Shown here: positions 45,049-63,270 of the stretch, piece by piece | Numbering within the stretch: the first letter of the stretch is position 1 | Layout of the letters: every line of letters starts with the position of its first letter | Source: Micromonospora sp. Llam0 | GTDB lineage: Bacteria; Actinomycetota; Actinomycetes; Mycobacteriales; Micromonosporaceae | DNA: 64,000 nucleotides | Direction of reading: 5' to 3' | Assembly: GCF_003751085.1 (NCBI RefSeq) | Contig: NZ_RJJY01000001.1 | Span: 124,001-188,000, forward strand | Made by a program: the position numbers and the translations under genes | Notes under the pieces: model-generated | Told to the model about the DNA's origin: nothing | The model's input: the letters and a program-made list of their open reading frames with translations, nothing else | The model's database searches: none

Positions 45049-45094
45049 GTCCCTCCTCGCGGAGACGGTTGGTGAAGGGAAACCGGGGTGGTGC

Positions 45095-47720: not shown

Positions 47721-47745
47721 TTCCGGCCCCTTTCCGGCGGTGGTG

Positions 47746-47790
47746 GGCGTCGTTCCGGAGCGGCAGGCGCTTTCGCTCCGGAACGACGCC
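47746..47790 (-). terminator. perfect 16-bp hairpin between precursor and radical-SAM genes
   Basis: GGCGTCGTTCCGGAGC at 47746-47761 and GCTCCGGAACGACGCC at 47775-47790 are exact reverse complements with a 13-nt loop. There is no strong T-run. In RiPP operons a partial terminator here makes the precursor mRNA more abundant than that of the enzymes, which is the likely role. Confidence 0.75.
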
Positions 47791-47817
47791 GTCGATCGTG
47801 CGGTCAGTACGGACCTG

Positions 47818-47976
47818 TCACTCGCTGGCGGGTGCCTTGTCGGCCGCCGCCTCGGTCACGTCGTGCCGCCTGGCCGGGACTGCCCGGTCCATGTCGAGGA
47901 GCATCTTGACGATGACCGCCCCGCGCTCCCGCTCGCTGGTGGTGATCGGGTCGTGACGTACGCTGCGTCGCTTCAT
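47818..47976 (-). CDS. putative RiPP precursor peptide, 52 aa
   Basis: MKRRSVRHDPITTSERERGA opens a 52-residue peptide that continues VIVKMLLDMDRAVPARRHDV and ends TEAAADKAPASE. The ribosome site GGGAGGTGAATGGT is strong and begins directly upstream of ATG 47976. It lies 28 bases after the S9 peptidase stop and 97 bases before the radical-SAM start, the usual place for a RiPP precursor. No Cys or Trp is present, so lanthionine or similar rings are unlikely. The border of leader and core cannot be seen. The identification is by position and size; an alternative is a small accessory protein. Confidence 0.7.
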   Translation of the reverse strand: MKRRSVRHDPITTSERERGAVIVKMLLDMDRAVPARRHDVTEAAADKAPASE

Positions 47977-48004
47977 ACCATTCACCTCCCTCCCTGGCTG
48001 GCTG

Positions 48005-49903
48005 TCAGGAACGGGCGACCGTCCACTGCGGTCGTCCGGCTTCGGTCCGGTCGTGGCACCGTGTCGGCGTGAACACCGTGTCGGCGTACCGGAGCAGTTC
48101 GTCGAAGGTTCGGGTCTGCCCGGCGGCGTCACCGTGGTGGCCGCCGGGCATCCAGTGCAGTCGGTGCGGCACCCGTCGGTGCCGTAGCGCGGCGACGTAG
48201 CGGCGGATCTGGTCCGGCGGGCAGCGTTCGTCGTCGGTGGCGGCGGCGATGAACAGCGGTCCGCGGACCCGGTCCAGGTAGGTCGTGGGGTCTGCGGCGT
48301 GGTACCGCTGCGGTACGTCCTCGGGCCCGCCGCCGAACAGTTCGTCGTCGACCTCGCGCAGCGCTGCGGTGGCGCCCCGGTGGGCCGCCGGGTAGTCGGC
48401 GATCGGGCAGACGGCGAGTCCGACCGCCCAGTCGGCCGGCGCGACGCCCATCGCGAGCAGGACCAGGTAGCCGCCCCACGAGTAGCCGCACAGCCCGGTC
48501 CGGCCAGGTTCGGCCACGCCGAGGTCGATCAGCTTCCGGCGTACGGCGGCCAGGTCGTCGAGTTGCGCCAGCCCGACCCGGTGGTCGAAGTCCCGTTGCC
48601 ACCGTGGCCCGTACCCGGTCGATCCCCGGTAGTTGGTGCGGGCCACCGCGTAGCCGGCGCGGACCAGCAGCTCCACCCGGGGGTCGTAGGCGTCCCGGTC
48701 GTGCAGGTACGGCCCGCCGTGCACCAGGAACAGCGTCGGCCACGGCCCGGTGCCGGGCGGGGTGGCCAGGAAACTGTGGATCTGCCCGTACGGCTGCTCG
48801 GTCCACAGTTCGGTGCGCCCGGGGACGGCAGCGGGGTGGGCGGCGGGTCGGGCAGCGGGTCGGGCGGGCCGGGGCCGGCTGGCCGGATGCGGTGCGGCCG
48901 TACCGGGGTGGGCGACCAACCGGCGGGGTGGCACCGAGTCGCTGGTCCAGACGTAGTGGATGGCGCCGTCCGGGGCGGCGGCCAGGTCGAGGACGGTGCC
49001 GGCTGGGGTGGCGACGGTGGTCTGTTCACCGGTTTCGGGGTCGGCCAGGAGCAGCCGGCTGCGCCCGGCCCGGTCGTGCTGGACGAGGATCCGCCCGTCG
49101 TCGCCGTACCAGTGGGCGGTGATCTCCGAGTCGTAGGACAGTTCGCGGTACAGTTCGACGCCGCGGTCGCGCCGCCAACTGCCGATCTGGTACCGGTCCG
49201 GTGTCTCGACGACGATCAGCAGTTCCGGCTCGGGCCGGTGCCCGGGGCGGAACTCCAGTGCCCAGATCCGCTGCTGGTCGCTGCCGGCGACGGTGTCGGT
49301 CCGTCCGTCGGTGAGCCGTACGACGCTGATCGCCGTCGTGGCGTCGGCCCGGGCGGCGAGCGCGATGGTGTGTCCGTCGGCGGTCAGGTCGACCAGGGTG
49401 GTGTAGCCGGCGGCGACCGCCACCAGGTGGCCCGGTCCGCCCGGTTCTCCGACGTAGCAGCGGGTCTGTGGGCCGGTTCCGACGCAGACGGCGGCGCGGC
49501 GGCCGGTGGCGTCGAAGGCGATGCCGTGCTGCCGGCCCGGTGGCAGCCCGGTCAGTGCCAGCGGTGGCGGGCCGGTTGCGGGTCGACCGGTTGTCTTCTG
49601 GCCGGTGAGACGCCGACCGGTTGTCTCCTGATCGGGGTCGACCGGCTGGCGCCGCCAGACACCGACGCCGGTCCGGTCTGCGTCGAACCACCAGAAGTGC
49701 CGGCCGTCCGGTTCGATGTCGCAGGCGGACACCCCGTTGGGCGCGGCGGTGCGGATCTGACGTCGGCCCGTGCGGATGTCCCAGGCCAGGACCTGGGCCG
49801 GGCCACCGTCGTCGTGCAACTCGACGGCCCTGGTGGGCTGGTGAGCGGCGAAGGCAGGTACATGTGGCGTGTTCACAACCACCCCGATCGGGTCGCGTGC
49901 CAC
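48005..49903 (-). CDS. S9-family prolyl-oligopeptidase-like peptidase
   Basis: A 632-residue protein. An N-terminal seven-bladed propeller-like region (about 1-370) is followed by an alpha/beta-hydrolase domain: LFLVHGGPYLHDRDAYDPRV, GLCGYSWGGYLVLLAMG (nucleophile Ser), IAAATDDERCPPDQIRRY (Asp) and LHWMPGGHHGDAAGQ (His). It is cytoplasmic, with no signal peptide. In a RiPP operon it probably removes the leader peptide or trims the product. The start GTG 49903 lacks a ribosome site; a GTG a few codons later (NTPHVPAF) is an alternative, or the message may be leaderless. Confidence 0.88.
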   Translation of the reverse strand: MARDPIGVVVNTPHVPAFAAHQPTRAVELHDDGGPAQVLAWDIRTGRRQIRTAAPNGVSACDIEPDGRHFWWFDADRTGVGVWRRQPVDPDQETTGRRLTGQKTTGRPATGPPPLALTGLPPGRQHGIAFDATGRRAAVCVGTGPQTRCYVGEPGGPGHLVAVAAGYTTLVDLTADGHTIALAARADATTAISVVRLTDGRTDTVAGSDQQRIWALEFRPGHRPEPELLIVVETPDRYQIGSWRRDRGVELYRELSYDSEITAHWYGDDGRILVQHDRAGRSRLLLADPETGEQTTVATPAGTVLDLAAAPDGAIHYVWTSDSVPPRRLVAHPGTAAPHPASRPRPARPAARPAAHPAAVPGRTELWTEQPYGQIHSFLATPPGTGPWPTLFLVHGGPYLHDRDAYDPRVELLVRAGYAVARTNYRGSTGYGPRWQRDFDHRVGLAQLDDLAAVRRKLIDLGVAEPGRTGLCGYSWGGYLVLLAMGVAPADWAVGLAVCPIADYPAAHRGATAALREVDDELFGGGPEDVPQRYHAADPTTYLDRVRGPLFIAAATDDERCPPDQIRRYVAALRHRRVPHRLHWMPGGHHGDAAGQTRTFDELLRYADTVFTPTRCHDRTEAGRPQWTVARS

Positions 49904-50048
49904 ACCGAGAGTAATTGATCCGCTTCTATTGGTAAAGAAGATGTTCGGCTGGCGGCGGAATCACCTGGTCACCGACGTGGCCGGCACCCGAGGCGGGGTG
50001 CCTGGGTGCCGGAGAGATCCGCCGGACCGTTGCGTCACGGTCGCCTGG

Positions 50049-50636
50049 TCACTGCCATCCGGCGGAGCCGGGTGCCGGACCGCCGGGTGCCGAGGGGCGC
50101 GGCGTCTGCGCGGCGAGCACCCGCTGGTTGTGCTGTTCCACGCCCTGTGTGGCCAGCAGTGGGCCGACGATGGTGTAGGTGAGCCAGGTCAGAAAACCGG
50201 TCACCCAGCCGATCAGGAGGAAGGTGAGCAGGATGTTGATGCCCTGGAACACCCAGTAGGAGATCATCATGATCAGGCCGAGGGCGGTGCGGCCCGCGTA
50301 CATGTTGCCGACCCCGAAGAGGCCGAGGAAGCCGAGCACGATTTCGAGCACGACCGCGGTCCCGCTCGATTTCATGGCCAACATCGCCGCGTAGTTCGGC
50401 TGTTGCGGCCCGGCCACGACGTAGATCTGCGCCGGGGGCGGGCCGCCCGGGGGAGGAGGCGTCTCGAGTGGGCGAGGCTGATAGGGGTCCGGCACTGGCG
50501 CGGGTAGATCAGGTCGGGGTGGCGGCGGTCCGCTGCCGTCGCTTCCGGCGGTGGCCGTTGGCTCGTACGGTTCGGCTCGGTCGGGGCGCTCGACGAGGTA
50601 TCGGTCCTGGTCGGGGCGATAAGGGTCCTGGGTCAC
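50049..50636 (-). CDS. proline-rich membrane protein with a TM2-like domain
   Basis: A 195-residue protein. The first 90 residues are rich in Pro, Asp and Arg and probably cytosolic. The C-terminal half has about three hydrophobic helices: VVLEIVLGFLGLFGVGNMYA, GLIMMISYWVFQGINILLTF, GWVTGFLTWLTYTIVGPLLA. LGFLGLFGVGNMYAGRTALG resembles the TM2 domain hallmark, G-x-x-x-x-Y-x-G. GTG 50636 is preferred to the longer frame back to 50780, whose N-terminus is unlike the rest. The function is unknown. It is divergent from the conflict operon and lies downstream of no obvious partner. Confidence 0.65.
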   Translation of the reverse strand: MTQDPYRPDQDRYLVERPDRAEPYEPTATAGSDGSGPPPPRPDLPAPVPDPYQPRPLETPPPPGGPPPAQIYVVAGPQQPNYAAMLAMKSSGTAVVLEIVLGFLGLFGVGNMYAGRTALGLIMMISYWVFQGINILLTFLLIGWVTGFLTWLTYTIVGPLLATQGVEQHNQRVLAAQTPRPSAPGGPAPGSAGWQ

Positions 50637-51035
50637 CTTCGCAGTATCTCGATGAATTGCGTTCCGTCGGAAGTGGCCGTTCAGTGGAATGAAGAGTAAT
50701 AGTACGTACGAGAAGCACCCGGTCAGCGGCGTGCGGAGTCTCTTCGTTCCGGTTTTCGTAGGTTCCAGCGAATCCGTCAAGATCTTTTTGTGCAGCGCCG
50801 ACGGTGATGATCATGGAGTGGTACGGATATGAGCCGTCCCGATGACATCGGCTACGTACTTGTGCTTACTCGTAGCCGCCGGCCGGACGATTGTGCCCTG
50901 GTAGTACGCCGTGCCAGTCTTGGCAATCTCGATCGATACTCATCCGGTTTCGCCTGTCCCGGCCACGACCGGGATGCTATTCCGGCCGGCATCGGGTGAA
51001 CTCGGGCAGAAACGCGCTGATCAGGAGAGCGGAAC
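50637..51035. other. divergent intergenic region before the conflict operon
   Basis: About 400 bp, locally AT-rich (for example AAGATCTTTTTGTG near 50780). It must hold the promoter of the seven-gene operon, but I find no convincing -35/-10 pair. AGGAGAG just before GTG 51036 is the ribosome site of the first gene. Confidence 0.45.
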
Positions 51036-52364
51036 GTGCCGTGCGGGTTTGAGTTGGGGCTCGTCGCCCCGAAGGTCGGGCTGGTCGCCGCTTCGGCGGC
51101 GGGCCCGGTTGCCGTGGCCGGGCTGGCCGTCGGAATGACCTGGGCGGTGGGGCGGGCCGCCGACGCGCTGATCGAACGGCAACAACGCGTACTTGCGGCG
51201 AACTTCCGCATCGAACGGGCAGCGGACCGGTACCAGGCGGTGCGACGCTGGGCGGAGCGGGCCCGCGCCGAGTTCGGGTCCGGGATCGATCTGCCGTCGG
51301 AGCTGCCACGCCGTTCCGCCGGTGCCGACCTGGCCCGGGCCGACACGCTGGCGGACGACCTGCTGGCCCGGACCGCAGCGGCGGAGCAGACCCTGCACGC
51401 GCAGTTGGGCGCGGCCCGCGCCCGCCGGATCGTCGCCCGGGTGCGTGCGGCGATCGCCGACGGTGCGGTCACCTCCCGCACCGACCCGGGCCCGGACCCG
51501 GCGCTCGGGTCACCCGGGCCCGGTCGGCAACGGATGACCGAGCTGGCCGAGCTCGGTGAATCCCTGCACCGGATACTGTCCCGACTCGACGCCGGAGCGT
51601 CCGACGTGGCGGTACGGCAGTTGGAGCAGTGGGCCGAGCAGGCGCTGCGGGCACCGTCCCCAGCCACCGCCCGGCGGCTGCTCGACGACCTGCGGCACTC
51701 GGTGGACAAGGCGAACCAGGAGGTGGCGGCCCGTCGCGCCCGGTTGGACACGCTCGCCGCCCCACTGCGGGAGCGGGTCGGCCCGGCAGTCACCGTGATG
51801 CACGCCCGGCTCGCCGCCGCAGCCGACGACCCCCGACCCGACTGGCCTGGCCTGACCGCGGCGATCGACGCAGCCCTGGCGGACGCCCGCGCCGCCGCCG
51901 ACCACGTGCAGACGGCGACCACCCGCACCTACACCGCCTGGTCGGTGCGGGAGTCGCTGCAGCAGCTCGGTTACACGGCGGAGCAGGGCTTCGACGACCG
52001 GCTCGCCGGCGACGGTACGGCCCACCTCACCCGACCCGACTGGCAGGACCTCGCCGTCCGGGTCGTCCAACGCCCCGGCGACCCGCACACCCCCCGGCGA
52101 CAGGACCTGCACCTCGACCTGGTCGCGCCGCGCGACAGCGAGCCGGACTTCGGTCCGGCGGTACGCGACCAGTGGCAGACCTCCGTCGCCGCGCTGACAC
52201 CCGCGCTGCAGGAACGCGGATTCGACGTACGGGTCGACGATCGCGGCGCGGACAGCGGCCCGCACGTACACCCGGTCGACGGGCAGGCGTACCCCTTCGA
52301 CCGCGCCGACCGCTCGCGCCGCGACCGGCGACACCAGCCGCGCCTGCGGGAGCGGCGGCCATGA
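51036..52364 (+). CDS. conflict-operon gene 1: membrane-associated coiled-coil protein
   Basis: A 442-residue protein with no enzyme motif. Residues about 7-45 are hydrophobic (VAPKVGLVAASAAGPVAVAG, LAVGMTWAVGRAADALI) and could enter the membrane. Residues 45-330 are long, charged, Ala/Arg-rich helices, probably coiled coil. The C-terminal region (SVRESLQQLGYTAEQGFDDR, LHLDLVAPRDSEPDFGPAVR, VRVDDRGADSGPHVHPVDGQ) looks globular. GTG 51036 follows AGGAGAG. Its TGA overlaps the next ATG as ATGA, so it is coupled to the AAA+ ATPase. A scaffold, sensor or adaptor role is the reasonable guess. I do not recognise the family. Confidence 0.75.
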   Translation: MPCGFELGLVAPKVGLVAASAAGPVAVAGLAVGMTWAVGRAADALIERQQRVLAANFRIERAADRYQAVRRWAERARAEFGSGIDLPSELPRRSAGADLARADTLADDLLARTAAAEQTLHAQLGAARARRIVARVRAAIADGAVTSRTDPGPDPALGSPGPGRQRMTELAELGESLHRILSRLDAGASDVAVRQLEQWAEQALRAPSPATARRLLDDLRHSVDKANQEVAARRARLDTLAAPLRERVGPAVTVMHARLAAAADDPRPDWPGLTAAIDAALADARAAADHVQTATTRTYTAWSVRESLQQLGYTAEQGFDDRLAGDGTAHLTRPDWQDLAVRVVQRPGDPHTPRRQDLHLDLVAPRDSEPDFGPAVRDQWQTSVAALTPALQERGFDVRVDDRGADSGPHVHPVDGQAYPFDRADRSRRDRRHQPRLRERRP

Positions 52365-54241
52365 CCGGCTGGGATGACCGGACGTACCCGGTCTGGTTGA
52401 GGGGGGTGAGCACCGCACTGTCGATCAACTCGCAGATGGTGCTCTACGGCAACGTACGGGACCAGTTCCTGCTGCCGGGACGGTCCGGACCGGAGCTGTG
52501 CGACCTGCGGCGGGCGGTGCACCGGATGCTGCGCGCCGAGGGCTACCCGACTCTGGCGGTGGCCGACGCGATCCATGGCGTGGGCGTACAGGCCGAACCG
52601 GACGTCTCCGCCACCACCGACGGCCGGGACGGTACGGCGGACCCGGCGGCCGGCTCTGCCGCACGTCCACCGGCGATAAAGATCGGCCCGTGGCGCGGTG
52701 CCGGGCCGGACCTCGACCGCGTCGCGGACCTGCTCACCCAGACGGCCGAGGCGCAGCAGCGGCAGGCGGTGCTGGTCGACTACGCCTCCCATCTGGTGCT
52801 GGACGCCAACCGGCTGGAGCCGGGCGAGCACCACTTCTTCGCCCGGTGTCTGCGGCTGGCCCGCTCGGTCTACCCCAGGCCGGCCCCGCCGGACCCGCGA
52901 CCGCTCTACAACCCGGTGATCTGGGTGGTCGAGAACGAACGGGACCTGCCGCTGTGGCTGACCGCCGGCAACGAGGACATCCGCAAGATCGCCGTGCCGC
53001 TGCCCGACCTCGGCGTCCGTCAGGCCGCAGCGACCCTGCTGGCCGGCGTCCTACCCGGATACACCGAGGCCGGGCCGGACGACCGCCGGGAGGTGGAGAA
53101 GCGGCTGGCCGAGCTGACCCAGGACATGCCGCTGCGCAGCATGATGGCGATCGCCCGACTGGCCATGCGGATGGGCACCAGGCTGGACGACATCGACGAG
53201 GCGGTCCGCTGCTACCGGGTCGGCGTGTACGACAACCCGTGGCGGCAGGCGCATCTGCGGGACCGGTTGCGCGACGCCACCGGCACCATCGGCGCCCGGG
53301 TGCGCGGCCAGCGGGAGGCCATCCAGCATTCGGTGGACATCGTGACCCGGGCGGTGCTGGGGCTGTCCGGAGCGCACGCCGGCAACTCGTCGCGTCCGCG
53401 TGGGGTGCTGTTCTTCGCCGGGCCGACCGGGGTGGGCAAGACCCAACTGGCGAAGGAGCTCACCCAGCAGATCTTCGGCGACGAGCGGGCGTACACCCGG
53501 TTCGACATGAGCGAGTTCTCCGCCGAGCAGGCAGCGGACCGGCTGATCGGCGCCCCGCCGGGATACGTCGGCTTCGACGCGGGCGGCGAACTGACCAACG
53601 CCGTACGGGAACGGCCGTTCAGCCTGCTGTTGTTCGACGAGGTGGAGAAGGCCCATCCGAGGATCCTGGACAAGTTCCTGCAGATTCTCGACGACGGCCG
53701 GCTCACCGACGCCAGCGGCTCCACCGTGTACTTCTCCGATACCGTGCTGGTCTTCACCTCCAACCTGGGTGTCTCCGAGCAGGAGTACGCGCTGCACGCC
53801 GCCGCCGAAGCCGGTGGCCGGGCCTTTCCCCGCCAGGAGCTGGAACAGCGGGTCCGCGCCGCGGTGAACCGGCACTTCGTCAGCGAACTCAACCGGCCGG
53901 AGCTGCTCAACCGGCTGGGCGACAACATCGTGGTGTTCAACTTCATCACCCGTACCGCCGCCGAAGAGATCTTCTCCGTCCTGCTCGACCACATCGCGCA
54001 GCGGCTGCGCAAGGAGCATCAGCTCCAGCTCGAGCTCGCCGACCCGGTACGGCGGCAACTGCTCGACGGGGCCACCGCCAACCTCACCTTCGGCGGTCGG
54101 GGTATCGGGTCGTACCTGGAGAGCGCGCTGGTGAACCCGTTGGCCCGGGAGCTGTTCCGCCGAGACCACCCGCGCGGGGACCGGGTGGTGGTGACCTCGC
54201 TGCAGCGGCGCGACGACACCTACCAGATCGGACTGCAATGA
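52361..54241 (+). CDS. conflict-operon gene 2: ClpB/HSP100-like AAA+ ATPase with a degenerate first module
   Basis: A 626-residue protein. The N-terminal module (about 1-300) looks like an AAA+ fold without a Walker A: MVLYGNVRDQFLLPG, AVLVDYASHLVL at the Walker B position, PVIWVVENERDLPLWL, VPLPDLGVRQAAATLL. The second module is intact: FAGPTGVGKTQLAKE (Walker A 354-361), IGAPPGYVGFDAGG (pore loop), SLLLFDEVEKAHPRILDKFL (Walker B), LVFTSNLGVS (sensor 1) and LNRPELLNRLGDNIVVF. The C-terminal small domain (FGGRGIGSYLESALVNPLAR) follows the ClpB pattern. It would use ATP to unfold or remodel proteins, perhaps feeding the CHAT proteases encoded downstream. Confidence 0.9.
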   Translation: MTGWDDRTYPVWLRGVSTALSINSQMVLYGNVRDQFLLPGRSGPELCDLRRAVHRMLRAEGYPTLAVADAIHGVGVQAEPDVSATTDGRDGTADPAAGSAARPPAIKIGPWRGAGPDLDRVADLLTQTAEAQQRQAVLVDYASHLVLDANRLEPGEHHFFARCLRLARSVYPRPAPPDPRPLYNPVIWVVENERDLPLWLTAGNEDIRKIAVPLPDLGVRQAAATLLAGVLPGYTEAGPDDRREVEKRLAELTQDMPLRSMMAIARLAMRMGTRLDDIDEAVRCYRVGVYDNPWRQAHLRDRLRDATGTIGARVRGQREAIQHSVDIVTRAVLGLSGAHAGNSSRPRGVLFFAGPTGVGKTQLAKELTQQIFGDERAYTRFDMSEFSAEQAADRLIGAPPGYVGFDAGGELTNAVRERPFSLLLFDEVEKAHPRILDKFLQILDDGRLTDASGSTVYFSDTVLVFTSNLGVSEQEYALHAAAEAGGRAFPRQELEQRVRAAVNRHFVSELNRPELLNRLGDNIVVFNFITRTAAEEIFSVLLDHIAQRLRKEHQLQLELADPVRRQLLDGATANLTFGGRGIGSYLESALVNPLARELFRRDHPRGDRVVVTSLQRRDDTYQIGLQ

Positions 54242-54753
54242 CACCGAAGCTCATCTGCCCGGGCTGCTCCCGCGTCGTCACCGACGGGCCGCCGTACTGT
54301 CCCACCTGCCTGCTGACGCTGGAGCCGCTGCCGGCCGACGAACCGGCGCAGGAGCCGGCCGACACGTCGGTTGAGCCGGCCGACCCGGCGGTCGCCGTAC
54401 GACCCGCCGGCGACGGACCGGCGACCAGCCCGGCCACGGCGGTCGACCAGGCGGCGGCGGTGCTGTCCTTCCCCTGGGGAGCGGTCGAACTGGCGGCCGG
54501 ACGCACCCTCGCCATCGGCCGGGAGAGCTCACCGTTCGCCACGGAACTCACGAGTTACGGCAACGTCTCCCGCCGGCACGCGGAGATCAGCTCCGCCGGA
54601 ACCGGCCTGACCGTGACCGATCTGCAGTCGGTGAACGGCACCTTCGTCAACGACCAGCGGATCGCCCCGGGGGAACCGTTCCCGGTGCGGCCCGGAGACC
54701 GGGTCCGGTTCGCCGCCACGCTCGTGGTGCGGGTAGAGCGGCCCGAACAGTGA
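54238..54753 (+). CDS. conflict-operon gene 3: zinc-ribbon FHA-domain protein
   Basis: A 171-residue protein. The N-terminus KLICPGCSRVVTDGPPYCPT has two CxxC pairs forming a zinc ribbon, followed by a disordered acidic/Pro/Ala linker (about 30-80). The C-terminal FHA domain shows TLAIGRESSPFA (Arg), GNVSRRHAEISS (Ser and His) and DLQSVNGTFVNDQR (Asn), the residues that bind phosphothreonine. It should recognise a protein phosphorylated by the kinase in the same operon. The ATG at 54238 overlaps the ATPase stop, and its own TGA overlaps the phosphatase GTG, so stoichiometric synthesis is likely. Confidence 0.92.
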   Translation: MTPKLICPGCSRVVTDGPPYCPTCLLTLEPLPADEPAQEPADTSVEPADPAVAVRPAGDGPATSPATAVDQAAAVLSFPWGAVELAAGRTLAIGRESSPFATELTSYGNVSRRHAEISSAGTGLTVTDLQSVNGTFVNDQRIAPGEPFPVRPGDRVRFAATLVVRVERPEQ

Positions 54754-55514
54754 ACCGGGTCGAGGTGGTCGGGGTGACCCACCGGGGTCGGGTGCGTCCC
54801 GCCAACGAGGACACCATCGCCGTCGCCGGTTTCCTGTCGGCGGTGCCGGAAGGTGAGCCGGTGCGCCTGACCGTATCGTCGACCCGTCCGGTGACCTGCC
54901 TGGTCGCCGACGGGCTGGGCGGGCACGCGGACGGTGCCCGGGCGTCCCGGCTGGCCGCCCAGGTGATCGTCGACGCGAGTCCGACCTTCGCGGATTCCGC
55001 GGCGATCGTGGCCGCCGTGCACCGTGCCGACGCCGACCTGTACGCCGACACCGACCTGCACGCCGGGTCCGGGCAGCCTCCGTCACCGGGCGCGATGGGC
55101 ACCACCGTGGTTCTGCTCACCGTGTCCGGCGAGAACGCCACCTGTGTCAACGTCGGAGACAGCCGCTGCTACCTGCTGCGCGACGGCCTCCTCGTTCAGC
55201 TGTCCCAGGACGACTCGCCGCCGCCGTCGGTGCCCGGCCCGGCGGTACGTACCGGCCGGGTGACCCAGACCCTCGGCGGGCGTCTGACCCGGGTCCCGAT
55301 CCATCCGCACGTACAGCGGCTTGCGACCGTCGCCGGGGACCGCTTCCTGCTGTGCAGCGACGGGCTCACCGACTACCTGCCGCTGGACGACGTGGAGACC
55401 TGCCTGACCGGCGGAGGTCGACCGGACGACGTCGTCCGGGACCTGCTGCGCCGCACCCTCGACGCGGGCGGTGGCGACAACGTTTCCGCCCTGCTCGTCA
55501 CGATCCTGGAGTAG
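54750..55514 (+). CDS. conflict-operon gene 4: PP2C-type Ser/Thr phosphatase
   Basis: A 254-residue PPM phosphatase. The metal-binding Asp residues are all present: VRPANEDTIAVA, CLVADGLGGHADGARASRLA, CVNVGDSRCYLLRDG, FLLCSDGLTDYLP and GGGDNVSALLVTI. RGRVRPANED supplies the phosphate-binding Arg. It would reverse phosphorylation by the membrane kinase encoded next, giving an on/off switch read by the FHA protein. GTG 54750 overlaps the FHA stop as GTGA. There is no extra domain. Confidence 0.93.
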   Translation: MNRVEVVGVTHRGRVRPANEDTIAVAGFLSAVPEGEPVRLTVSSTRPVTCLVADGLGGHADGARASRLAAQVIVDASPTFADSAAIVAAVHRADADLYADTDLHAGSGQPPSPGAMGTTVVLLTVSGENATCVNVGDSRCYLLRDGLLVQLSQDDSPPPSVPGPAVRTGRVTQTLGGRLTRVPIHPHVQRLATVAGDRFLLCSDGLTDYLPLDDVETCLTGGGRPDDVVRDLLRRTLDAGGGDNVSALLVTILE

Positions 55515-55516
55515 CC

Positions 55517-57514
55517 GTGGACGACATGCACAGTGAAGCGGGCATCGAGCGCGCCGCCGAACCGCTGAGCCCGCCGACCAGCCGGGACGATCTTCCGGCG
55601 ACGACGGTCGACCAGCCCGCGACCACGCCCGACCAGCCGACCGGACGGTACCGGCGGGTCAACCTGCCGCCGGCCCTGCTCGACCGGTATTTCCCGGACC
55701 GGGACCTCGCCGCGGGCGGCGAGGCGGACCTGATGCTGGTCCGGGACCGAACCAGCGGCACACCGGCGGTCATCCGGATCTACCGTCGCGGTGACGCCGT
55801 CGACACCGCCACCCTGGACATCCTGCGGCGGGCGGACCGTCGGCACCTGATCGGCCTGCTGGACTGGGGGCGGGGCGACGGCGTGCTCTGGGAGGTCCTG
55901 GAGTACGCGGCCGGCGGGTCGCTGGCGGACCTGCGTCGTGACCGTCCCGGGCCGTGGACCGACGGGCAGGTCCGCCAGGTGCTCGACCAGCTCCTTCCGG
56001 CGCTGGAGTACGTCCACTCGTTGCATCTGGTGCATCGGGATCTCAAACCGGACAACGTCCTGGTCCGCTCGGTCGAACCGCTCGATCTGGTCCTCGCCGA
56101 CTTCGGTCTGACGACCATGGTGGCGGCGACCCACGAGATGCGCCAGACCACCTCCCGTACGTTGGCCTACGCCGCTCCCGAGGCGGCCGCCGGCGACACC
56201 TGGGCCGGGTTGGACTGGTGGGCGCTCGGGATTCTCCTGGTGGAACTGCTCACCGGGCAGCACCCGTTCCAGCGGCTGGACGGCAGCTGGATGGACGACC
56301 GGATGATCGCCCGCGAGGTGGCCGTCCGGGAGATCGACCTGAGTCTGATCCGCGACGAGCGATGGCTGCTGCTGTGTCGAGGCCTGCTGACCCGCGCCCC
56401 GGAGCAGCGCTGGGGTGCCGCGCAGGTGCGCCGGTGGTGCGCCGGCGCGGCACCCGCCGTCGCCGGGCCGAGCGGACCGGTCTACGTCTTCGCCGACACC
56501 GCCTACAGTTCGCCGCAGGAACTGGCGGACGCGTTCCGGCGCCGGTGGACCGACGCCCGGCGGGTACTCGCCGGGCAGGCGTACCGGACCCCGCAGTTCC
56601 TGGCGTTGCGGGACTGGGCCGCGACCTGCCAGCTGACTGCGGCGGTACGGGCGCTGGACGAGCCGAGCCGGCCGGACCGGGCGGTCACCCGGCTGATCCA
56701 CGCTCTGGACCCGGAAGGGGTCGCCGTCTACTGCCAGCGCCCAATGGACCGGGACAACCTGGTCCAGCTGGCCCAGCAGGCGATCGAAGGCCCCGGCGCG
56801 GCCCGGGACATCATCGTCGGGCTGCATGAGGACGGCATCCTGACCGTGCTCGACGGGCGGCCCGGCTGTGCCGGCTACGCCCTGGTCGACGCCCGGTGGC
56901 GGCGGCTCGGCGAGGGGTTCACCTTCCGGGCCCGGGAACTGGATCCGTCGTTGACGAAGTCCCAACGCGGGATGTACCTGGCGATGCTGCTGCTGGCCGC
57001 TTTTCCCGGCCAGGACCAGATGTACGCCCGGCAGGCCGAGGCCGCCGCGGCCGATCCGGACGCCCGGGAGCAGGCGCGGTTCGCCGCACTGGCCGACCAG
57101 GACATTCCGGCGGAGTCCCGTCCCGCCCACCACGTCATGTTGCTGCACATGGCACCGCTGGCCGCCGACCGGACGGCCCGGCAGCGTGCGGACCGCGAGA
57201 TCCGTCAGGCCGAGGAGGACCGGCAGCGGAAGCTCCGTCGGCGACAGACGCTGGACGTGCGCAGCGGGCCGGTCGCGGTGGTCTGCGGTGCGCTCGCCTG
57301 CTGGCTGGCGCGGCCCGAACCGGTGCCGCTCGGTCCGGTGACCGCACCGTGGTGGCTGCTCGCCAGCGTCGCGATCGCAGCGACGTTCTACCTCGGCTTC
57401 CGGGCCCGGCGCGGCGGGCGCAGGAAGACCTCCATCGTGGCCTTCCTCTGCGGGGTGATCGCGGTGCTGATGCTCTACAGCGGCCTGGGTGGACAGTTGC
57501 CGCTGCCGGGATAG
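55517..57514 (+). CDS. conflict-operon gene 5: membrane Ser/Thr protein kinase with altered ATP-lysine
   Basis: A 665-residue Hanks-type kinase. Residues about 50-310 hold LVHRDLKPDNVLVRS (HRD 173-175), LVLADFGLTTMVAA (DFG), LAYAAPEAAAGDT (APE) and WWALGILLVELLTGQHPF. The glycine loop is DLAAGGEADLMLVRD. The usual VAIK lysine is replaced: the strand reads TPAVIRIYRRG, giving Arg at that position. A middle domain (about 330-560, VYVFADTAYSSPQELADAFR and LDPEGVAVYCQRPMDRDNLV) is unfamiliar. The C-terminus has two or three hydrophobic segments (APWWLLASVAIAATFYLGF, TSIVAFLCGVIAVLMLY). GTG 55517 with GGAG upstream lies two bases after the phosphatase stop. Confidence 0.88.
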   Translation: MDDMHSEAGIERAAEPLSPPTSRDDLPATTVDQPATTPDQPTGRYRRVNLPPALLDRYFPDRDLAAGGEADLMLVRDRTSGTPAVIRIYRRGDAVDTATLDILRRADRRHLIGLLDWGRGDGVLWEVLEYAAGGSLADLRRDRPGPWTDGQVRQVLDQLLPALEYVHSLHLVHRDLKPDNVLVRSVEPLDLVLADFGLTTMVAATHEMRQTTSRTLAYAAPEAAAGDTWAGLDWWALGILLVELLTGQHPFQRLDGSWMDDRMIAREVAVREIDLSLIRDERWLLLCRGLLTRAPEQRWGAAQVRRWCAGAAPAVAGPSGPVYVFADTAYSSPQELADAFRRRWTDARRVLAGQAYRTPQFLALRDWAATCQLTAAVRALDEPSRPDRAVTRLIHALDPEGVAVYCQRPMDRDNLVQLAQQAIEGPGAARDIIVGLHEDGILTVLDGRPGCAGYALVDARWRRLGEGFTFRARELDPSLTKSQRGMYLAMLLLAAFPGQDQMYARQAEAAAADPDAREQARFAALADQDIPAESRPAHHVMLLHMAPLAADRTARQRADREIRQAEEDRQRKLRRRQTLDVRSGPVAVVCGALACWLARPEPVPLGPVTAPWWLLASVAIAATFYLGFRARRGGRRKTSIVAFLCGVIAVLMLYSGLGGQLPLPG

Positions 57515-57518
57515 GCCA

Positions 57519-57538
57519 CCGGCGGTGCGAGCCGCCGG
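57519..57538 (+). promoter_or_regulatory. hairpin between kinase and CHAT genes
   Basis: CCGGCGG-TGCGAG-CCGCCGG, a 7-bp stem with a 6-nt loop, lies a few bases after the kinase stop in a 90-bp gap that is otherwise rich in short GC inverted repeats. It may attenuate transcription into the two protease genes. Weak evidence. Confidence 0.4.
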
Positions 57539-57606
57539 CCAGGTGAGGCGTCGACGCCGGCGGCCGGTGGACCATCCGGTCCGTCAGTCGACAATGGGAG
57601 GGCGTG

Positions 57607-60135
57607 ATGACCGCGATGGCAGGGCGACCGGACGGTGCCGCTGAGTTCGACGCGGCGCTGGTCGAACGGATCCGGGCCGTCGCCCACCGGCACTCGGCGG
57701 CCGAGGGGCAGCATCCGGGCGAACTGCTCCGCGAGCTGGACGTGCTCGGTGCGCAGGCGGCCGGATCGCCTGGCGTCCGGATCCTGTACCACGCGGTGCG
57801 GTCGGTGCTGACCACCGCCCGGGCGGTCCATGACGGCGACTCGACAGCGGACCGGCCCGGTCGGGGCCGGGACGAGATCGACGCCCTCCTGGCCCGTGAT
57901 CTGCCGGGCTTCGATCGGCAGCTGCGGGCGCAGCAGATCATGCTGGCCATGGCGGCGAGCAGCGGGCCGGGCCGGGACGAGGAGTTCCTGCGGTCGCTGG
58001 AACAACTGCACGACCTGCTCGACCAGCCGGGCACCCGCGCCGAGGAGCGGACCGTGGCGTCGGATGCGAAGCTGGTCGCCACGCTGCTGGCCGGCATGAC
58101 CGGTGACCAGTGGCAGTGGGACGCGGCCGCCGGGCTCACCGACGAGCAGCTGACACCGTTGCGGGCGCGGGCCAGGCCGCCGTACGGGCGCGACCCGCGG
58201 CAATCGGACCGTCTGCTCTACGGCCTGGCGCTGCTGATGACCAGCGCGACGGATTCGGCCCGGCTCGACGAGGCGGTCGCCGAGTTCCACGCCGCAGCGG
58301 CCGCCACGTCAGCTCGATCGCCGTTCCACGCGGCCACCTACGCCGCCCTTGCCGGAGTCGGCCTGTTCCGCCGGGCGGAACAGGCCGGCACCGCCGACGC
58401 CTGGGCTGCGGCCCGTGAGACGCTGGCGGCCGCCCGGCGGCTGGCCGGCGGACCGCAGCATCCCTTGTGGCCGGTCGTCGGTGAGCTGCTTGGCGCGGCC
58501 GAACAACACCGGGGACAGTGGGCGGACGCCCGGCAGACCGAGCTGGCGGGGTTGGACCGGTACGCCTGGCAGGTGCTCCTACAGCCCGACGTCACCGCTG
58601 CGGCGGAACTCGCCCGGTACGCGGCGGGGAAAGCGGCCGACCTGGCCCGCCGGTACGTGGCCCAGGACTCGATCGCTGAGGCGGTCCGGGCGTTGGAGTC
58701 GGGGCGGGGACTCATCCTGCACTCCGCGACCGAACTGCGTTCGGTCGGCGACCGGTTGGCCGGGGCGGGCCGCGCTGACCTGGCCCGACGATGGCTGGCC
58801 GCCACCGACCCGGCAGGGCTGGACGGCGCGCCGGCGGAGCTGCGTCGGGAGGTGCTGACGGCGCTTACCGACAGCCCCGGGGACCGGGCCGGCGCGGCGC
58901 TGCTGCGCCCGCCCGCGCCGGCCGAGATCCGCTCGGCGCTGGCCGTGCTGGAGCTGGACGCACTGGTCTACCTGGTGCCGTCGCCTGCTCCCGAGTTCGG
59001 CATGGCGGTCATCGTGCCCGTGGATGGGCCGCCGCTGGCGGTCCTGCTGCCCAACCTGGTGACGCAGCGGCCACCCGACGTCGAGCACTACCTGCGCGCG
59101 GTGACCGACCGGGCGGCCGCCCTCGCCGAGCCACACCGGGAGCTGCAGGTGCAGGAGGCGGATGCCCGGCTCGGCAACAGCCTCGCCGCGCTCTGCGACT
59201 GGGCGTGGTACGCGGCGGTCGGTCCGGTGCTGGCGAACTGCCCGCCGGGGCGAGCGTCGGCCGCGTCGGCCCGGCCTCCGAGGCTGGTCCTGATCCCGGT
59301 CGGGGAGCTGACCCGCGTCCCGTGGCAGGCGGCCCGCCGCCCGGACGGGGTGTACGCCCTCGAACTGGCCGAGTTCTCCCAGGCGGTCTCCGCCCGGATG
59401 CTCTGCGAGATCGCGGCGCGGCCACCGGTACCGGCGCGTCCGGTGGGCCTGATCGTCGGCGACCCGGACACCGCCGACCAGGCGGCCGACCTGCCGTACG
59501 CGCGGGCCGAGGCGTACGCCGTCCAGCAGTCCTTCTACCGTGGCGGACGGTACGTGGGACGCCGGCCGGACGGCTCGGTGAGCCGGTCGGGTCAGGGCGG
59601 CAAGGCCGAGGTCCGCGACTGGTTGTTGTCCACCGCTGCGGCGGACGGCGTGACGCTGCACCTGGCCTGTCACGGCGTCATCCAGGTCGAGCCCGGGGTG
59701 GCCAGCTCCTATCTGCTGCTGGCGGACGGGGAACGGCTCAGCGCCGAGGAGATCATCGCGAGCCTGGCGCTACGTCCGGACCGGCAGATCGGGCTGGTCG
59801 TGCTGGCCGCCTGCCGTACCGGTGTCTCCGGCCGTGGCTACGACGAGGCGTACAGCCTGGGCACCACCTTCCTGGCCGTCGGCGCCCGCGCCGTGCTGTC
59901 CACCCAGTGGAGCATTCCGGACGGCGCCACGTCGGTGCTGATGTTCATGTTCCACCACTTCCTGATGGTCGAGCGGCGGACGGTCCGGGACGCACTTCGC
60001 CAGGCGCAGCTCTGGATGCTCGACCCGGGCCGGCGGCCGCCCGATGCCATGCCGGCCGTGCTGCGCCGGCAGCTGCGGGTGTCGGATCCGGCGGCGGTCG
60101 TCGCCTGGGCCGGCTTCACCCACTGGGGTCACTGA
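57607..60135 (+). CDS. conflict-operon gene 6: CHAT-domain protease
   Basis: An 842-residue protein. Residues 1-430 are helical and TPR-like (for example VLGAQAAGSPGVRILYHAVR, AAARETLAAARRLAGGPQHP). The C-terminal half is a CHAT caspase-like domain with the complete dyad: GVTLHLACHGVIQVEPG (His689) and IGLVVLAACRTGVSGRGYDE (Cys736). The signature end SLGTTFLAVGARAVLSTQWS, then FMFHHFLMVERRTVRDALRQ, fits the family. GGAGG five bases before ATG 57607 chooses that start over GTG 57604. It should cut proteins once triggered, plausibly through the AAA+ ATPase. Confidence 0.92.
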   Translation: MTAMAGRPDGAAEFDAALVERIRAVAHRHSAAEGQHPGELLRELDVLGAQAAGSPGVRILYHAVRSVLTTARAVHDGDSTADRPGRGRDEIDALLARDLPGFDRQLRAQQIMLAMAASSGPGRDEEFLRSLEQLHDLLDQPGTRAEERTVASDAKLVATLLAGMTGDQWQWDAAAGLTDEQLTPLRARARPPYGRDPRQSDRLLYGLALLMTSATDSARLDEAVAEFHAAAAATSARSPFHAATYAALAGVGLFRRAEQAGTADAWAAARETLAAARRLAGGPQHPLWPVVGELLGAAEQHRGQWADARQTELAGLDRYAWQVLLQPDVTAAAELARYAAGKAADLARRYVAQDSIAEAVRALESGRGLILHSATELRSVGDRLAGAGRADLARRWLAATDPAGLDGAPAELRREVLTALTDSPGDRAGAALLRPPAPAEIRSALAVLELDALVYLVPSPAPEFGMAVIVPVDGPPLAVLLPNLVTQRPPDVEHYLRAVTDRAAALAEPHRELQVQEADARLGNSLAALCDWAWYAAVGPVLANCPPGRASAASARPPRLVLIPVGELTRVPWQAARRPDGVYALELAEFSQAVSARMLCEIAARPPVPARPVGLIVGDPDTADQAADLPYARAEAYAVQQSFYRGGRYVGRRPDGSVSRSGQGGKAEVRDWLLSTAAADGVTLHLACHGVIQVEPGVASSYLLLADGERLSAEEIIASLALRPDRQIGLVVLAACRTGVSGRGYDEAYSLGTTFLAVGARAVLSTQWSIPDGATSVLMFMFHHFLMVERRTVRDALRQAQLWMLDPGRRPPDAMPAVLRRQLRVSDPAAVVAWAGFTHWGH

Positions 60136-60199
60136 GAGAGGGATCCCGCCCTGTCGGCGCCGACCGGCGGGCGGGCACTGGCGGAGAGTGAGGACCAAG

Positions 60200-62809
60200 G
60201 TGTCGACGTACGACGAGGTCATCGCCGGACTGCAGGCGACGCTGGCGGCCCGGTCCGGGCCGGAGCGGAGCAGCGTGTTGCGTGAGCTGGCCGCCGCCCA
60301 CATCGGCCGGTACCGGCTCAGCCCGGGCAACCCGGCGGGGCTGCCCGATCTGACCGCCGCCATCGACGCCTGGCGGGAGATCTACACGGGTCTGGAGTCC
60401 GACGATCCGCAACGCTATCCGTACGCCGGGGTACTGGGGCTGTACCTGACGGTCCGGGACCGGGCACACACCCGGTCCTCGGCCGACCGTGAGCAGGCGG
60501 TCGCCTTTCTGGAGGAGGCGCTCAGCTATCCGCAGCAGTCGCCGACCGCGCTGGCGATGTACCGGTTCAGCCTGGCGCAGTACTACCTGTTCGAGACGGT
60601 GGGCCGCTTCGAGGCCGCGCAACGGGGTGGATCGGCCTTCCACTCCGGGGCTTCCCCTGAGGCCAGGGCCGTCGCCCGGCGTACCGTCGAACTGCTGCGT
60701 CTCGCCGCAAAGGAGTTGGACGGGGCCAACGTACAGCTCACCGCCGCCGTCACGCCGCTGCTGACGACGGCGCAGGCGTGGTGGGACCTGCTGGAGTCCT
60801 TGGGCTCAGGCTTCGGCGACATCGACTTCCCCCGATTGGCGCAGGCGATGGCCGCGGTACAGCAGCTGAACAAGGACGCCCAGCAGCCGGCGGGCGGGTT
60901 GCCCGCCGGGCTGCTGAGCGGAGGGCCGGCGGGCGGCGGGCCGGCGCATGCCGGCGGCCACCTGCCCGACCCGTGGCCTTCGGTGGCCGACCTGCTGGCC
61001 CAGGTGTCGCCACAGGACTTCCCGACCCTGGTCGTACGCAGCCGCGAGGCCGATGAGGACCTGTCGCCGGCACCGCCTGTGCAGCCGATCCCCGTCGCGG
61101 CGCTCGACCTCCTCGCCGTGCGGCACGAGCTGCTGGCGACGCTGGCCGGCACGGCCGCCGTCCCACCGGTGGACGAGGCACCGATGGAGGCGGCGCCGGT
61201 GGAGGCCGGGACGTCGCAGGACGACACCGTGCTGAAGTTGACGGCAGCGTTGTGGCGCACCGACGGTCCGGTGCCGGCGACGACCTTGATCGACCGGGCG
61301 GCAGCGCTGGCGACCACCCTGGTCGGCGAAGGAGAATCCGACCCGGTGATCGCCGCGATCGACCGTCTGCTGCTGGCCACCACGCTGTTTCTGCGGAACC
61401 GCGACGACGACGGTGGAGGTTGGGGGGACGACACCTGGACCGGCGAGGATCCCGCCGGACCAACCGGAGACTCCGGCACGGACCTGTCGGTGGCGGCCGG
61501 ACATCTGTTGACGGCCGCGGCCGGTCTGTCGGCCGCGCACCCGGTGGCTGCGGTCGTCCAGCAGGCGTTGGGTGTGCTGCTGGACCAGCGTGGCTGGCTG
61601 CCCGGGGTGCTCGGGCCCGCCGATTCGATGCCTGCAACCGACGGGGTGCCCGCCGTCGACGCGGCCCCGGCGGCGGAGCCGCCGTCGGTCGGTGCCGTCG
61701 CCGCAGGGGCCCGCGACCTCGGAGCCGACCTGCTGGTGCAGCTCTGCCCACTGCCGGCCGGGGGGCGGCCCGGCGTACCCCGGGTGGGGTTGCTCCTGCT
61801 CCGTCCGCAGCCGGCCCGGGTCGACCTGGCCGGTCCGGTGCCGCTTCCCGATCGACCGGGCGGCGTGCCGGGAAGCCTGCCGGGCGGCGAGTTCGGTGCC
61901 TGCCTGCGGGCGGCGCTCGGCGAGCGGACCGTACCGGGGCGGGTACTGCTGGTCGTACCCGACGACCTGGCCCGGCACGCGTGGTCGGCGGTGCGCGACG
62001 AGGCCGGCCGCCACCTCGTCGCGGACCTGACGATGTCGTACGTCGCCTCCGGCAGACAGGTGATCGAGTTGGCCGGGCGGCGGCGGCTGCCAGCCACGTA
62101 CACCCCGGTCTTCGTCGCCAACCCCCGGGGCGACCGGGAATGGGCGAGCGTCGAGGCGATGGAGCTGCGCCGGTTGTTCCACCCACGGTCCGTCGGGCTG
62201 GGCCGGGTCGTCGAGCAGTCGGACGGGGCAGGTACGCCGGCCCAGCTGCTCGCCTGGCTGCCCGGCCCGGACGGTCCCGGCACCGGGTTGCTGCAGCTCG
62301 ACTGCGGTCTGGTCGACGCCGAGGCGGGGTACGACGGCGGCGCGGGGTACGACGGCGGCGCGGGCCCCGCGTTGGAGCTGGGGACAGCCGACGAGCCAGC
62401 CGTGCTCACCGCCGAGAGCATTCGGCAGCAGGGGCGGCGCCGTCCGGTGGACTCACCCGGCGGTCTTGCGCTCCTGCCGGCCGCCGCTGACCCCGGTGCC
62501 GCGATCCGGTTGGCGGACGCGTTGCTGGCCGCCGGGCTGACCGGGGTGATCGGCTGGTCGTGGCCGGTGCCGCGGCCGGTGGCGGCGCTGATGCTCGCGG
62601 TCCTGCATGGCAAGCTGATTGACGAGCGGCTGCCGGCGGCCGAGGCGGTCACCGCGGTACGGCGGTGGATGCTCGACCCCGACCGGCGTGGCCCGGTGGC
62701 CGGGGCGGCCGGCCACGCCGCGACCATGGCCGGAACCGATCTCACCGATCCGGTCTTCTGGGCGGCCATGTGGCATCGCGGCTCGATCCGGGTGCCGGAC
62801 GAGTCGTAG
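60200..62809 (+). CDS. conflict-operon gene 7: CHAT-like protein lacking both catalytic residues
   Basis: An 869-residue paralogue of the preceding protein. The N-terminus is TPR-like (LRELAAAHIGRYRLSPGNPA, YRFSLAQYYLFETVGRFEAA) with a variable Gly/Ala/Pro middle. The C-terminal third follows the CHAT order. Where its neighbour has LHLACHG this protein has LLQLDCGL (about residue 701), so the His is missing. Where the neighbour has VLAACRT it has LLPAAAD (about 762), so the Cys is Ala. The shared ending (AAEAVTAVRRWMLDPDRRGP, FWAAMWHRG) matches AQLWMLDPGRRPPD in the active protein. It is probably a regulatory pseudoprotease. GTG 60200 follows GAGGACCAAG. Confidence 0.85.
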   Translation: MSTYDEVIAGLQATLAARSGPERSSVLRELAAAHIGRYRLSPGNPAGLPDLTAAIDAWREIYTGLESDDPQRYPYAGVLGLYLTVRDRAHTRSSADREQAVAFLEEALSYPQQSPTALAMYRFSLAQYYLFETVGRFEAAQRGGSAFHSGASPEARAVARRTVELLRLAAKELDGANVQLTAAVTPLLTTAQAWWDLLESLGSGFGDIDFPRLAQAMAAVQQLNKDAQQPAGGLPAGLLSGGPAGGGPAHAGGHLPDPWPSVADLLAQVSPQDFPTLVVRSREADEDLSPAPPVQPIPVAALDLLAVRHELLATLAGTAAVPPVDEAPMEAAPVEAGTSQDDTVLKLTAALWRTDGPVPATTLIDRAAALATTLVGEGESDPVIAAIDRLLLATTLFLRNRDDDGGGWGDDTWTGEDPAGPTGDSGTDLSVAAGHLLTAAAGLSAAHPVAAVVQQALGVLLDQRGWLPGVLGPADSMPATDGVPAVDAAPAAEPPSVGAVAAGARDLGADLLVQLCPLPAGGRPGVPRVGLLLLRPQPARVDLAGPVPLPDRPGGVPGSLPGGEFGACLRAALGERTVPGRVLLVVPDDLARHAWSAVRDEAGRHLVADLTMSYVASGRQVIELAGRRRLPATYTPVFVANPRGDREWASVEAMELRRLFHPRSVGLGRVVEQSDGAGTPAQLLAWLPGPDGPGTGLLQLDCGLVDAEAGYDGGAGYDGGAGPALELGTADEPAVLTAESIRQQGRRRPVDSPGGLALLPAAADPGAAIRLADALLAAGLTGVIGWSWPVPRPVAALMLAVLHGKLIDERLPAAEAVTAVRRWMLDPDRRGPVAGAAGHAATMAGTDLTDPVFWAAMWHRGSIRVPDES

Positions 62810-62841
62810 CGGTAGCTGGCCGGCGGGGGTCAGCCCGGCTA

Positions 62842-62873
62842 AGTCAGCCCCGGCTGGAGTCAGCCCCGGCTGG
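62842..62873. repeat. two tandem copies of a 16-bp unit over a gene end
   Basis: AGTCAGCCCCGGCTGG is repeated head to tail and a degenerate third copy lies just upstream. It overlaps the stop codon of the VOC gene, so repeat number could change where that protein ends. Confidence 0.8.
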
Positions 62874-63267
62874 AGATCTGCTGCACGGCCCAGCCGTTGC
62901 CGTCCGGGTCGGTGAAGTAGAAGAAGCCGACGTTGTCCAGCGGGTCGGGGACCGGATGGGGATTCTCGCCGAGGACCTGGATGTCGCTGACCGCGACACC
63001 GCGTCCGCTGAGCTCGGCGTGCGCGGCCTTGAGGTCGGCGACGACGAGCTGTAGGCCACGGAGCGAACCGGGCGGCATGTCCGGTACGGCGCCCTTGCCG
63101 ATCACCACGGAGCAGCCCGACCCGGGCGGAGTCAGTTGGATGATCCGTACCTCGTCGTTGATCTTCGTGTCGTGGTCGACGGCGAAGCCGAGCTGTTCGG
63201 CGTAGAAGTCCTTGGCCCGGTCCAGGTCCGCAACCGGGACCACGACCACCTCGAGCGTCCAGTTCAC
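62860..63267 (-). CDS. VOC/glyoxalase-family protein
   Basis: A 135-residue vicinal-oxygen-chelate protein with two beta-alpha-beta-beta-beta units: EVVVVPVADLDRAKDFYAEQ, LGFAVDHDT, then GLQLVVADLKAAHAELSGRG and FFYFTDPDGNGWAVQQI. FTDPDGN-W is typical. The expected metal ligands are partly missing, so it may bind rather than isomerise a small molecule. AAGGTGA before GTG 63267 is the ribosome site. It follows the LacI-type regulator by three bases and is probably co-transcribed with it. Confidence 0.88.
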   Translation of the reverse strand: MNWTLEVVVVPVADLDRAKDFYAEQLGFAVDHDTKINDEVRIIQLTPPGSGCSVVIGKGAVPDMPPGSLRGLQLVVADLKAAHAELSGRGVAVSDIQVLGENPHPVPDPLDNVGFFYFTDPDGNGWAVQQISSRG

Positions 63268-63270
63268 GTG

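Follow-up and report, generated by a model that had tools for sequence, protein, structure and literature searches.

The 64,000-nucleotide window analysed here (the whole stretch from positions 124,001 to 188,000 of contig NZ_RJJY01000001.1 of Micromonospora sp. Llam0, whose 8.9 Mb genome lies in two contigs) carries an operon of seven open plus-strand frames, G1 to G7, which fill positions 51036-62809. The coordinates and frames given in a preliminary description of this DNA hold, and so do the first four junctions, with 4-nucleotide overlaps at G1/G2, G2/G3 and G3/G4 and a gap of 2 nucleotides at G4/G5. The Pfam assignments of G2 to G7 all lie above the gathering cut-off:

51036..52364, plus strand: G1, coiled-coil-type protein of 442 amino acids, no Pfam family
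52361..54241, plus strand: G2, AAA+ protein of 626 amino acids, Pfam AAA_2 and ClpB_D2-small
54238..54753, plus strand: G3, FHA protein of 171 amino acids, FHA PF00498, 52.9 bits
54750..55514, plus strand: G4, PP2C-type phosphatase of 254 amino acids, PP2C_2 PF13672, 55.2 bits
55517..57514, plus strand: G5, Ser/Thr kinase of 665 amino acids, Pfam Pkinase
57604..60135, plus strand: G6, CHAT (caspase-fold) peptidase, CHAT PF12770, possible alternative start at ATG 57607
60188..62809, plus strand: G7, pseudo-CHAT protein, CHAT PF12770, start at GTG 60188 or 60200

Because G5 and G6 are 89 nucleotides apart, and G6 and G7 52 or 64 depending on the start of G7, the two CHAT genes are less tightly coupled to the rest. 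A structured terminator in the G5-G6 gap was not supported (z-score -1.22; 21 of 200 shuffles equally good).

To place these genes among their relatives, we compared the window with 38 other actinobacterial loci, taken from searches of the family (31 places), order (3) and class (4). The locus stretches (L numbers; three-digit G numbers are genomes) are mostly 19-19.5 kb, with L136 and L137 shortened by contig ends, and the control set comprised 40 stretches placed at fixed positions, as fractions of the contig, on 20 contigs from 19 genomes; one of these stretches (L204) is separated from a system locus by about 20 kb. A profile built up on the system loci and only then applied to the controls detected G1 in 37/39 loci (28/39 in the first scan) and in 0/40 controls. 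In these 37 loci, the window among them, G1 immediately precedes the AAA+ gene: in 37/37 cases the distance from the end of G1 to the stop of the AAA+ gene equals the length of one AAA+ gene, so the two are direct neighbours. A kinase was present in 38/39 loci (3/40 controls), a radical-SAM/4Fe-4S gene in 36/39 (0/40), an FHA gene in 35/39 (1/40), a caspase-fold peptidase of the CHAT or C14 type in 25/39 (0/40) and PP2C in 16/39 (1/40), with the caveat that seeds came from the window, L119 and L120, whose rows partly match themselves. The clustering is not due to chance, because none of the 40 controls held a G1, AAA+, radical-SAM or CHAT relative in the same scans. The conserved unit is G1, the AAA+ protein, the radical-SAM protein, the FHA protein and the kinase, and PP2C and CHAT are optional.

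The expectation that the genes would be conserved together was borne out for G1, AAA+, FHA and kinase, and less so for the optional phosphatase and peptidases. Nor is the seven-gene composition itself a conserved unit, as had been proposed: the radical-SAM gene of the other loci is missing here, and the exact set recurred in only 1 of the 38 other loci, L128 of genome G479 from the same genus, which is 96% identical to the window in the AAA+ N-domain and 91% in the C-terminal part of G7. L119 (G036) has the order G1-AAA-RSAM-FHA-PP2C-kinase-CHAT, where RSAM is the radical-SAM gene. The AAA+ protein is patchily distributed, occurring in at least 32/354 genomes of the family (N-domain search, E 1e-10), at least 7/296 of the class (E 1e-80) and at least 2/7 of the genus, all lower bounds in that few candidates were scored per genome. 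An order-wide search of 200 genomes gave, among the matches listed, 4 places that match well beyond the ClpB part. The closest named protein is that of Solwaraspora sp. WMMB762 (97% identity over the 300 N-terminal residues searched).

In L119, L121, L129 and L130-L134 the radical-SAM gene directly follows the AAA+ gene, which defines the corresponding site in the window:

54238..54241, plus strand: AAA+/FHA junction, occupied by the radical-SAM gene in near relatives, here the 4-nucleotide AAA+/FHA overlap

The motif CxxxCxxC is present in 36/36 of these radical-SAM genes, and the L131 gene, tested against Pfam, carries PF13353. In a tree of the AAA+ protein, the window and L128 nest among relatives that have the gene (forks 100/99, 99/98 and 89/85), so its loss in the window lineage is the simplest reading. 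Elsewhere in the host genome just two matches were found (E 2e-6 and 5e-6), and within the genus only weak ones (E 6e-7 to 1e-5, in 6/7 genomes). Close to the radical-SAM gene, L137, L141, L148 and L153 also share a further gene family, perhaps another type of effector or modifier; its member in L141 contains a ThiF (E1-like) domain (PF00899, E 1.6e-39).

The core of the unit is formed by G1 and G2. G1 has a marginal hydrophobic stretch at residues 9-27, near its N-terminus (hydropathy scan), and its sequence relatives extend to the beta-proteobacteria. The C-terminal half of G2 is a ClpB-D2-type module (match to solved ClpB at E 2e-79, profile positions 285-596) with Walker A GPTGVGKT at 354, Walker B from 422, the pore loop GYVG near 402, sensor 1, and sensor 2 GGRGIG at 578; the Walker, pore-loop and sensor residues are invariant or nearly so in 45 aligned relatives. 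In ClpB, a pore loop of the GYVG type serves substrate threading. The description of G2 as a ClpB-like unfoldase therefore fits its C-terminal half, but not its N-terminal part: hhalign comparisons of residues 1-240 with ClpB D1 and D2, and of residues 1-300 with D1, gave no support, and nothing among solved structures matched significantly (best E 0.36). A degenerate D1 module in this region, although structurally still possible, was set aside on the hhalign result. From its sequence, G2 is an N-domain of its own joined to a single ClpB-D2-type AAA+ module. It falls far below the curated full-length cut-offs for ClpB (258/1232 bits), ClpA (213/993) and ClpV (207.5/884.95), and on these cut-offs an ordinary ClpB or ClpV or a remnant of a type VI secretion system was rejected. 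Strings resembling a ClpP-docking loop occur in G2 solely at 333, 403 (the pore loop itself) and 623, and by eye none was judged to be one. Presence of the protein in E. coli was rejected: 1466 records match, none of them along more than 80% of the query, and the 10 listed are annotated as clpB or Clp.

The phosphorylation switch of the preliminary description is present as domains, with a caution about the kinase that is taken up below. By eye, G3 has a zinc-ribbon-like CxxC...CxxC at its N-terminus in addition to the FHA domain, and G4 carries the usual PP2C motifs. In G5 a hydropathy scan shows a hydrophobic segment near the C-terminus (640-658), as it does in 36/37 kinases of relatives, and the protein keeps HRD, DFG and APE, with the beta-3 Lys replaced by Arg. 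This Lys is retained in 30/38 aligned kinases, and HRD is altered in those of L142 and L154-L158. Genes for OmpA-domain proteins (Pfam-tested for two) lie beside or near the kinase gene in L120 and L141 and in L137, L139, L140, L148 and L153 of the same cluster.

Both G6 and G7 exceed the gathering cut-off of 24 bits for CHAT (165.5 and 49.7 bits, respectively), so that two CHAT proteins are indeed encoded, but only G6 retains the His/Cys dyad; in the alignment of G7, Gly stands in place of the His and Ala in place of the Cys. Among 37 CHAT-type frames, of which two are cut off and 35 assessable, the dyad is kept in 30/35 and both residues are lost in 5/35. In four loci (the window, L128, L131 and L155) an active-type CHAT adjoins a dyad-less one, the pairs of L131 and L155 being on the opposite strand. 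In L144, L145, L146, L149, L151 and L152, two active CHATs follow the PP2C/FHA genes in tandem on the same strand. A two-seed scan found CHAT in 18/39 loci and a profile in 23/39, rising to 25/39 with C14; L130 appears in the first scan and not in the second, as its gene is cut by the end of the stretch. Peptidase_C14-type caspase genes near the system were seen at L139:1839-4340 (minus strand, Pfam-tested) and, by phmmer, in L138, L140, L119, L133 and L135.

The operon lies within a segment that differs between close relatives:

49981..63270, no strand: 13.3 kb segment absent from G480, holding the operon and a minus-strand open reading frame at 62860-63267

In G480, another genome of the genus, similarity to the window breaks off at 49980 on the left and resumes at 63271 on the right, and the two flanks abut, with 20 G480 bases claimed by both. 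No repeat was evident by eye at this junction; integrases were not searched for. In G479 the operon stands at the same left flank, and the short frame 3′ of it is absent. The AAA+ protein also occurs in 20 of 72,556 plasmid records, of which 12 are typed conjugative and 13 are from Rhizobium or Moellerella. Spread by phages was considered and rejected: 139 of 50,697 phage records match, 0 over 80% of the query, and the 15 listed cover about half. Adjoining the operon, a small minus-strand cluster (43846-49903) encodes proteins that by eye resemble a P450 and a B12/radical-SAM protein, and within the genus long DNA matches to it were listed solely for G479 and G480. The G000 assembly measures 8.9 Mb vs. 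6.7-7.6 Mb in the other six genomes of the genus.

Outside the actinobacteria we scanned 19 loci (the best 8 of 80, and 11 of the 20 plasmid records) and dropped L046 as ClpB-like, with an 889-residue frame and nothing else beside it. The remaining 18 derive from alpha-, beta- and gammaproteobacteria, from a deltaproteobacterial bin and a planctomycete, and from one clostridial and one cyanobacterial plasmid. G1 or a G1-like gene was found in 17/18 and a radical-SAM gene in 16/18, counts that are softer than the actinobacterial ones in that the seeds included G1 of L039, L044, L045, L123, L124 and L126 (five of the six chosen by position) and the radical-SAM genes of L042, L124 and L167; the L041 sequence breaks off right behind the AAA+ gene, and in L043 the AAA+ gene stands by itself. 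Independent signs of G1 homology are tblastn matches at E about 1e-5 for L039, L040 and L041, and a match at E 1e-15 for the Rhizobium gene before its entry into the profile. Profile matches were obtained for Photobacterium (2e-5) and Aristaeella (8e-4), and Rhodopirellula matched by hhalign only (E 7e-5, probability 63%).

The effectors in these loci are of other kinds. Five plasmid loci carry a helicase and a PIN protein (Pfam-tested in Photobacterium, by annotation in the others). The Photobacterium helicase is MkoA-like (E 8e-93); its AAA+ and radical-SAM proteins gave weaker PADLOC matches (PDC-M37B 3e-28, DolB 3e-18, pVip 4e-8), and its PIN and G1-like proteins none. In Rhizobium the effector is a kinase-DUF4011-helicase-MTES_1575 fusion (PADLOC PDC-S37 E 9e-139, Hhe 8e-65), and the 44-kb Aristaeella plasmid encodes a DUF4011 protein, two kinases, FHA, radical-SAM, AAA+ and PP2C proteins. 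On the Geminocystis plasmid (L164), a HigB-type toxin gene and a regulator gene precede the AAA+ gene.

The preliminary description had read the operon as a conflict or cell-death system. Its conserved module, effector exchange, plasmid carriage and one presence/absence polymorphism, all seen at the level of sequence, point to a conflict system. We put at even chances the joint proposal that the operon is a chromosomal anti-invader system, probably abortive and leading to cell death, with a constant core and exchangeable effectors, and that the family core is G1 and the AAA+ protein, usually with radical SAM, run by a membrane kinase, FHA and sometimes PP2C. The G6 and G7 CHATs standing next to each other, the nearly invariant AAA+ residues, the hydrophobic segment of the relatives' kinases and the linkage of core and caspase-fold genes relative to the controls count in its favour as well. 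All its functional steps, from the cue and the phosphorylation targets to the G6-G7 pairing and the final outcome, we infer. The membrane-anchored G5 would sense a cue from infection or envelope damage, and the resulting phosphorylation would be read by G3 and reset by G4. G3 or the kinase may dock the G1 and AAA+ assembly; at the membrane, the state of the G1/AAA+ complex would be controlled by kinase and FHA protein. The AAA+ protein could then thread or remodel a restraining partner, for which G7 (the pseudo-CHAT) and G1 are the likeliest candidates, and G6, the active CHAT peptidase, would thereby be freed to cleave host proteins. A broader form of this proposal seems to us a shade less probable: an undescribed pan-bacterial conflict system of G1, a ClpB-D2-type AAA+ protein with a single module and its own N-domain, and an NrdG-like radical-SAM protein, which takes effectors as unlike as caspase-fold peptidases, a helicase with PIN, and helicase-nuclease fusions, and of which the actinobacterial version would be an analogue of a regulated caspase cascade, with kinase, FHA and AAA+ proteins releasing an active enzyme from a dead partner.

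Several observations weigh against the conflict-system proposal. PADLOC matched G1-G7 only through generic kinase and AAA models, and among ten hand-picked neighbour proteins of relatives it matched one, a caspase (E <= 1e-10). The scan found no radical-SAM gene in the operon locus of the window or of G479. The beta-3 Arg occurs in 8/38 kinases (window, L119, L128, L130-L134), with HRD and DFG intact; a change from Lys to Arg at this position often disables kinases, and judging by sequence it is not safe to assume activity in this clade. No caspase-fold gene was seen in 14/39 stretches, with a G7-like CHAT just outside the fetched stretch in some of them (L130, L141, L148, L153), and CHAT is co-directional with the AAA+ gene in just 12/18 loci of the first scan. 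Among the 354 genomes of the family, 50 have a G7-like CHAT (resembling the C-terminal part of G7 at E <= 1e-15), 32 the AAA+ N-domain and 22 both (Fisher p 4e-14). This association speaks for the proposal, and the 28 genomes in which such CHATs occur without the AAA+ protein speak against it; many of the G7-like matches are weak, at 60-80 bits, and some could represent active CHATs. Also in favour, a G7-like CHAT lies within 30 kb of 17/33 AAA+ places vs. 0.26 expected under uniform placement in 9 Mb, a null that disregards possible shared siting in variable regions. G7-like CHATs are separable from the AAA+ gene yet strongly prefer its neighbourhood.

This separability speaks for a rather unlikely alternative, in which G1, AAA+, FHA, PP2C and kinase form a signalling and remodelling module and the CHAT/pseudo-CHAT genes an unwired cassette that prefers the same regions. 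The 89-nucleotide gap before G6, the opposite-strand pairs of L131 and L155 and the stretches without a caspase-fold gene also speak for it; the shared direction in those 12 loci, the tandem active CHATs behind PP2C/FHA in six loci and an association far above the uniform null speak against it. That the operon is instead a housekeeping or developmental relay for envelope stress, with CHAT as a regulatory protease and no role in conflict, strikes us as improbable. Kinase/PP2C/FHA sets are common in actinobacterial signalling, and the kinase has its C-terminal membrane segment and, in some relatives, OmpA-domain genes beside it, but such a relay sits poorly with the patchy occurrence in class, family and genus, with plasmid carriage and with relatives in other phyla that use helicase or nuclease effectors. 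Least probable is a degenerate relic, its radical-SAM gene lost, its kinase a pseudokinase and one CHAT dead. The loss of that gene, the beta-3 Arg and the missing G7 dyad speak for it; against it, all seven frames are open, G479 keeps the same set, the six other loci with beta-3 Arg all have the radical-SAM gene, dyad-less CHATs recur, and HRD, DFG and the G6 dyad are retained.

If the conflict-system proposal is right, one AAA+ core working with proteolytic or nucleic-acid-acting effectors would constitute a new class of modular immunity spanning at least five phyla (Actinomycetota, Pseudomonadota, Planctomycetota, Bacillota and Cyanobacteriota). It would offer a bacterial model of phosphorylation and an unfoldase freeing a caspase-like protease from a pseudo-enzyme, and would raise the question of why a radical-SAM enzyme travels with an unfoldase.

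In keeping with the preliminary description, no published account of such a composition was found in the PMC literature, where most subscription journals are missing. One likeness in parts is the phospho-control of type VI secretion, which consists of PpkA, PppA, Fha and ClpV; the operon likewise has a kinase, PP2C, FHA and a ClpB-family AAA+ protein, but G3 scores 21.4 bits against a TagH cut-off of 120.25, G2 is below the ClpV cut-off, and there are no secretion genes among the seven. The TerY-P triad comprises the vWA protein TerY, PP2C and a kinase, and no vWA domain is present in the seven proteins (Pfam). In Mokosh, Hhe and PDC-S37 the helicase defines the system. Their models (MkoA for Mokosh) are matched by helicase effectors of the proteobacterial relatives; here, however, the helicase is one of several effectors beside G1, AAA+ and radical SAM, and the window has none. 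Matches to Dodola DolB (3e-17), PDC-M37B (7e-27) and mad6 of MADS (4e-40) cover the AAA core or kinase region only, and beyond these AAA and kinase hits the partner proteins of the three systems gave no match; for MADS, only mad6 (kinase region) and mad8 (E 0.0045, AAA region) appeared among the matches listed, which for G5 were the best 25 of 33 families. CHAT is listed for type III-E CRISPR Csx29 (TPR-CHAT) and for Borvo in PMC10952713, and a CHAT caspase-fold effector (PF12770) is thus common to them and the operon, but G6 matches Csx29 weakly (NCBIfam E 0.0012; PDB E 0.07) and no CRISPR parts occur among the seven. The GAP1-N2 DO-GTPase systems of Kaur et al. (2020, PMC7159879), the nearest published account found, are likewise actinobacterial operons with a kinase (zinc ribbon or membrane segments) and PP2C; their core is a GTPase and GAP1, and the seven proteins have no GTPase or vWA match in Pfam. 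The same paper describes MoxR-vWA ternary conflict systems of the VMAP, iSTAND and FtsH types, which share with the operon an AAA+ threshold core, a constant core with exchangeable effectors, caspase-fold peptidases, occasional FHA, kinase and radical-SAM parts and an occurrence mostly in multicellular prokaryotes. Their core is MoxR and vWA, whereas here it is a ClpB-D2-type AAA+ protein with its own N-domain, together with G1. We rate the core of G1 and a ClpB-D2-type AAA+ protein as new, and the kind to which it belongs, an AAA+-gated conflict system with exchangeable effectors, as known.

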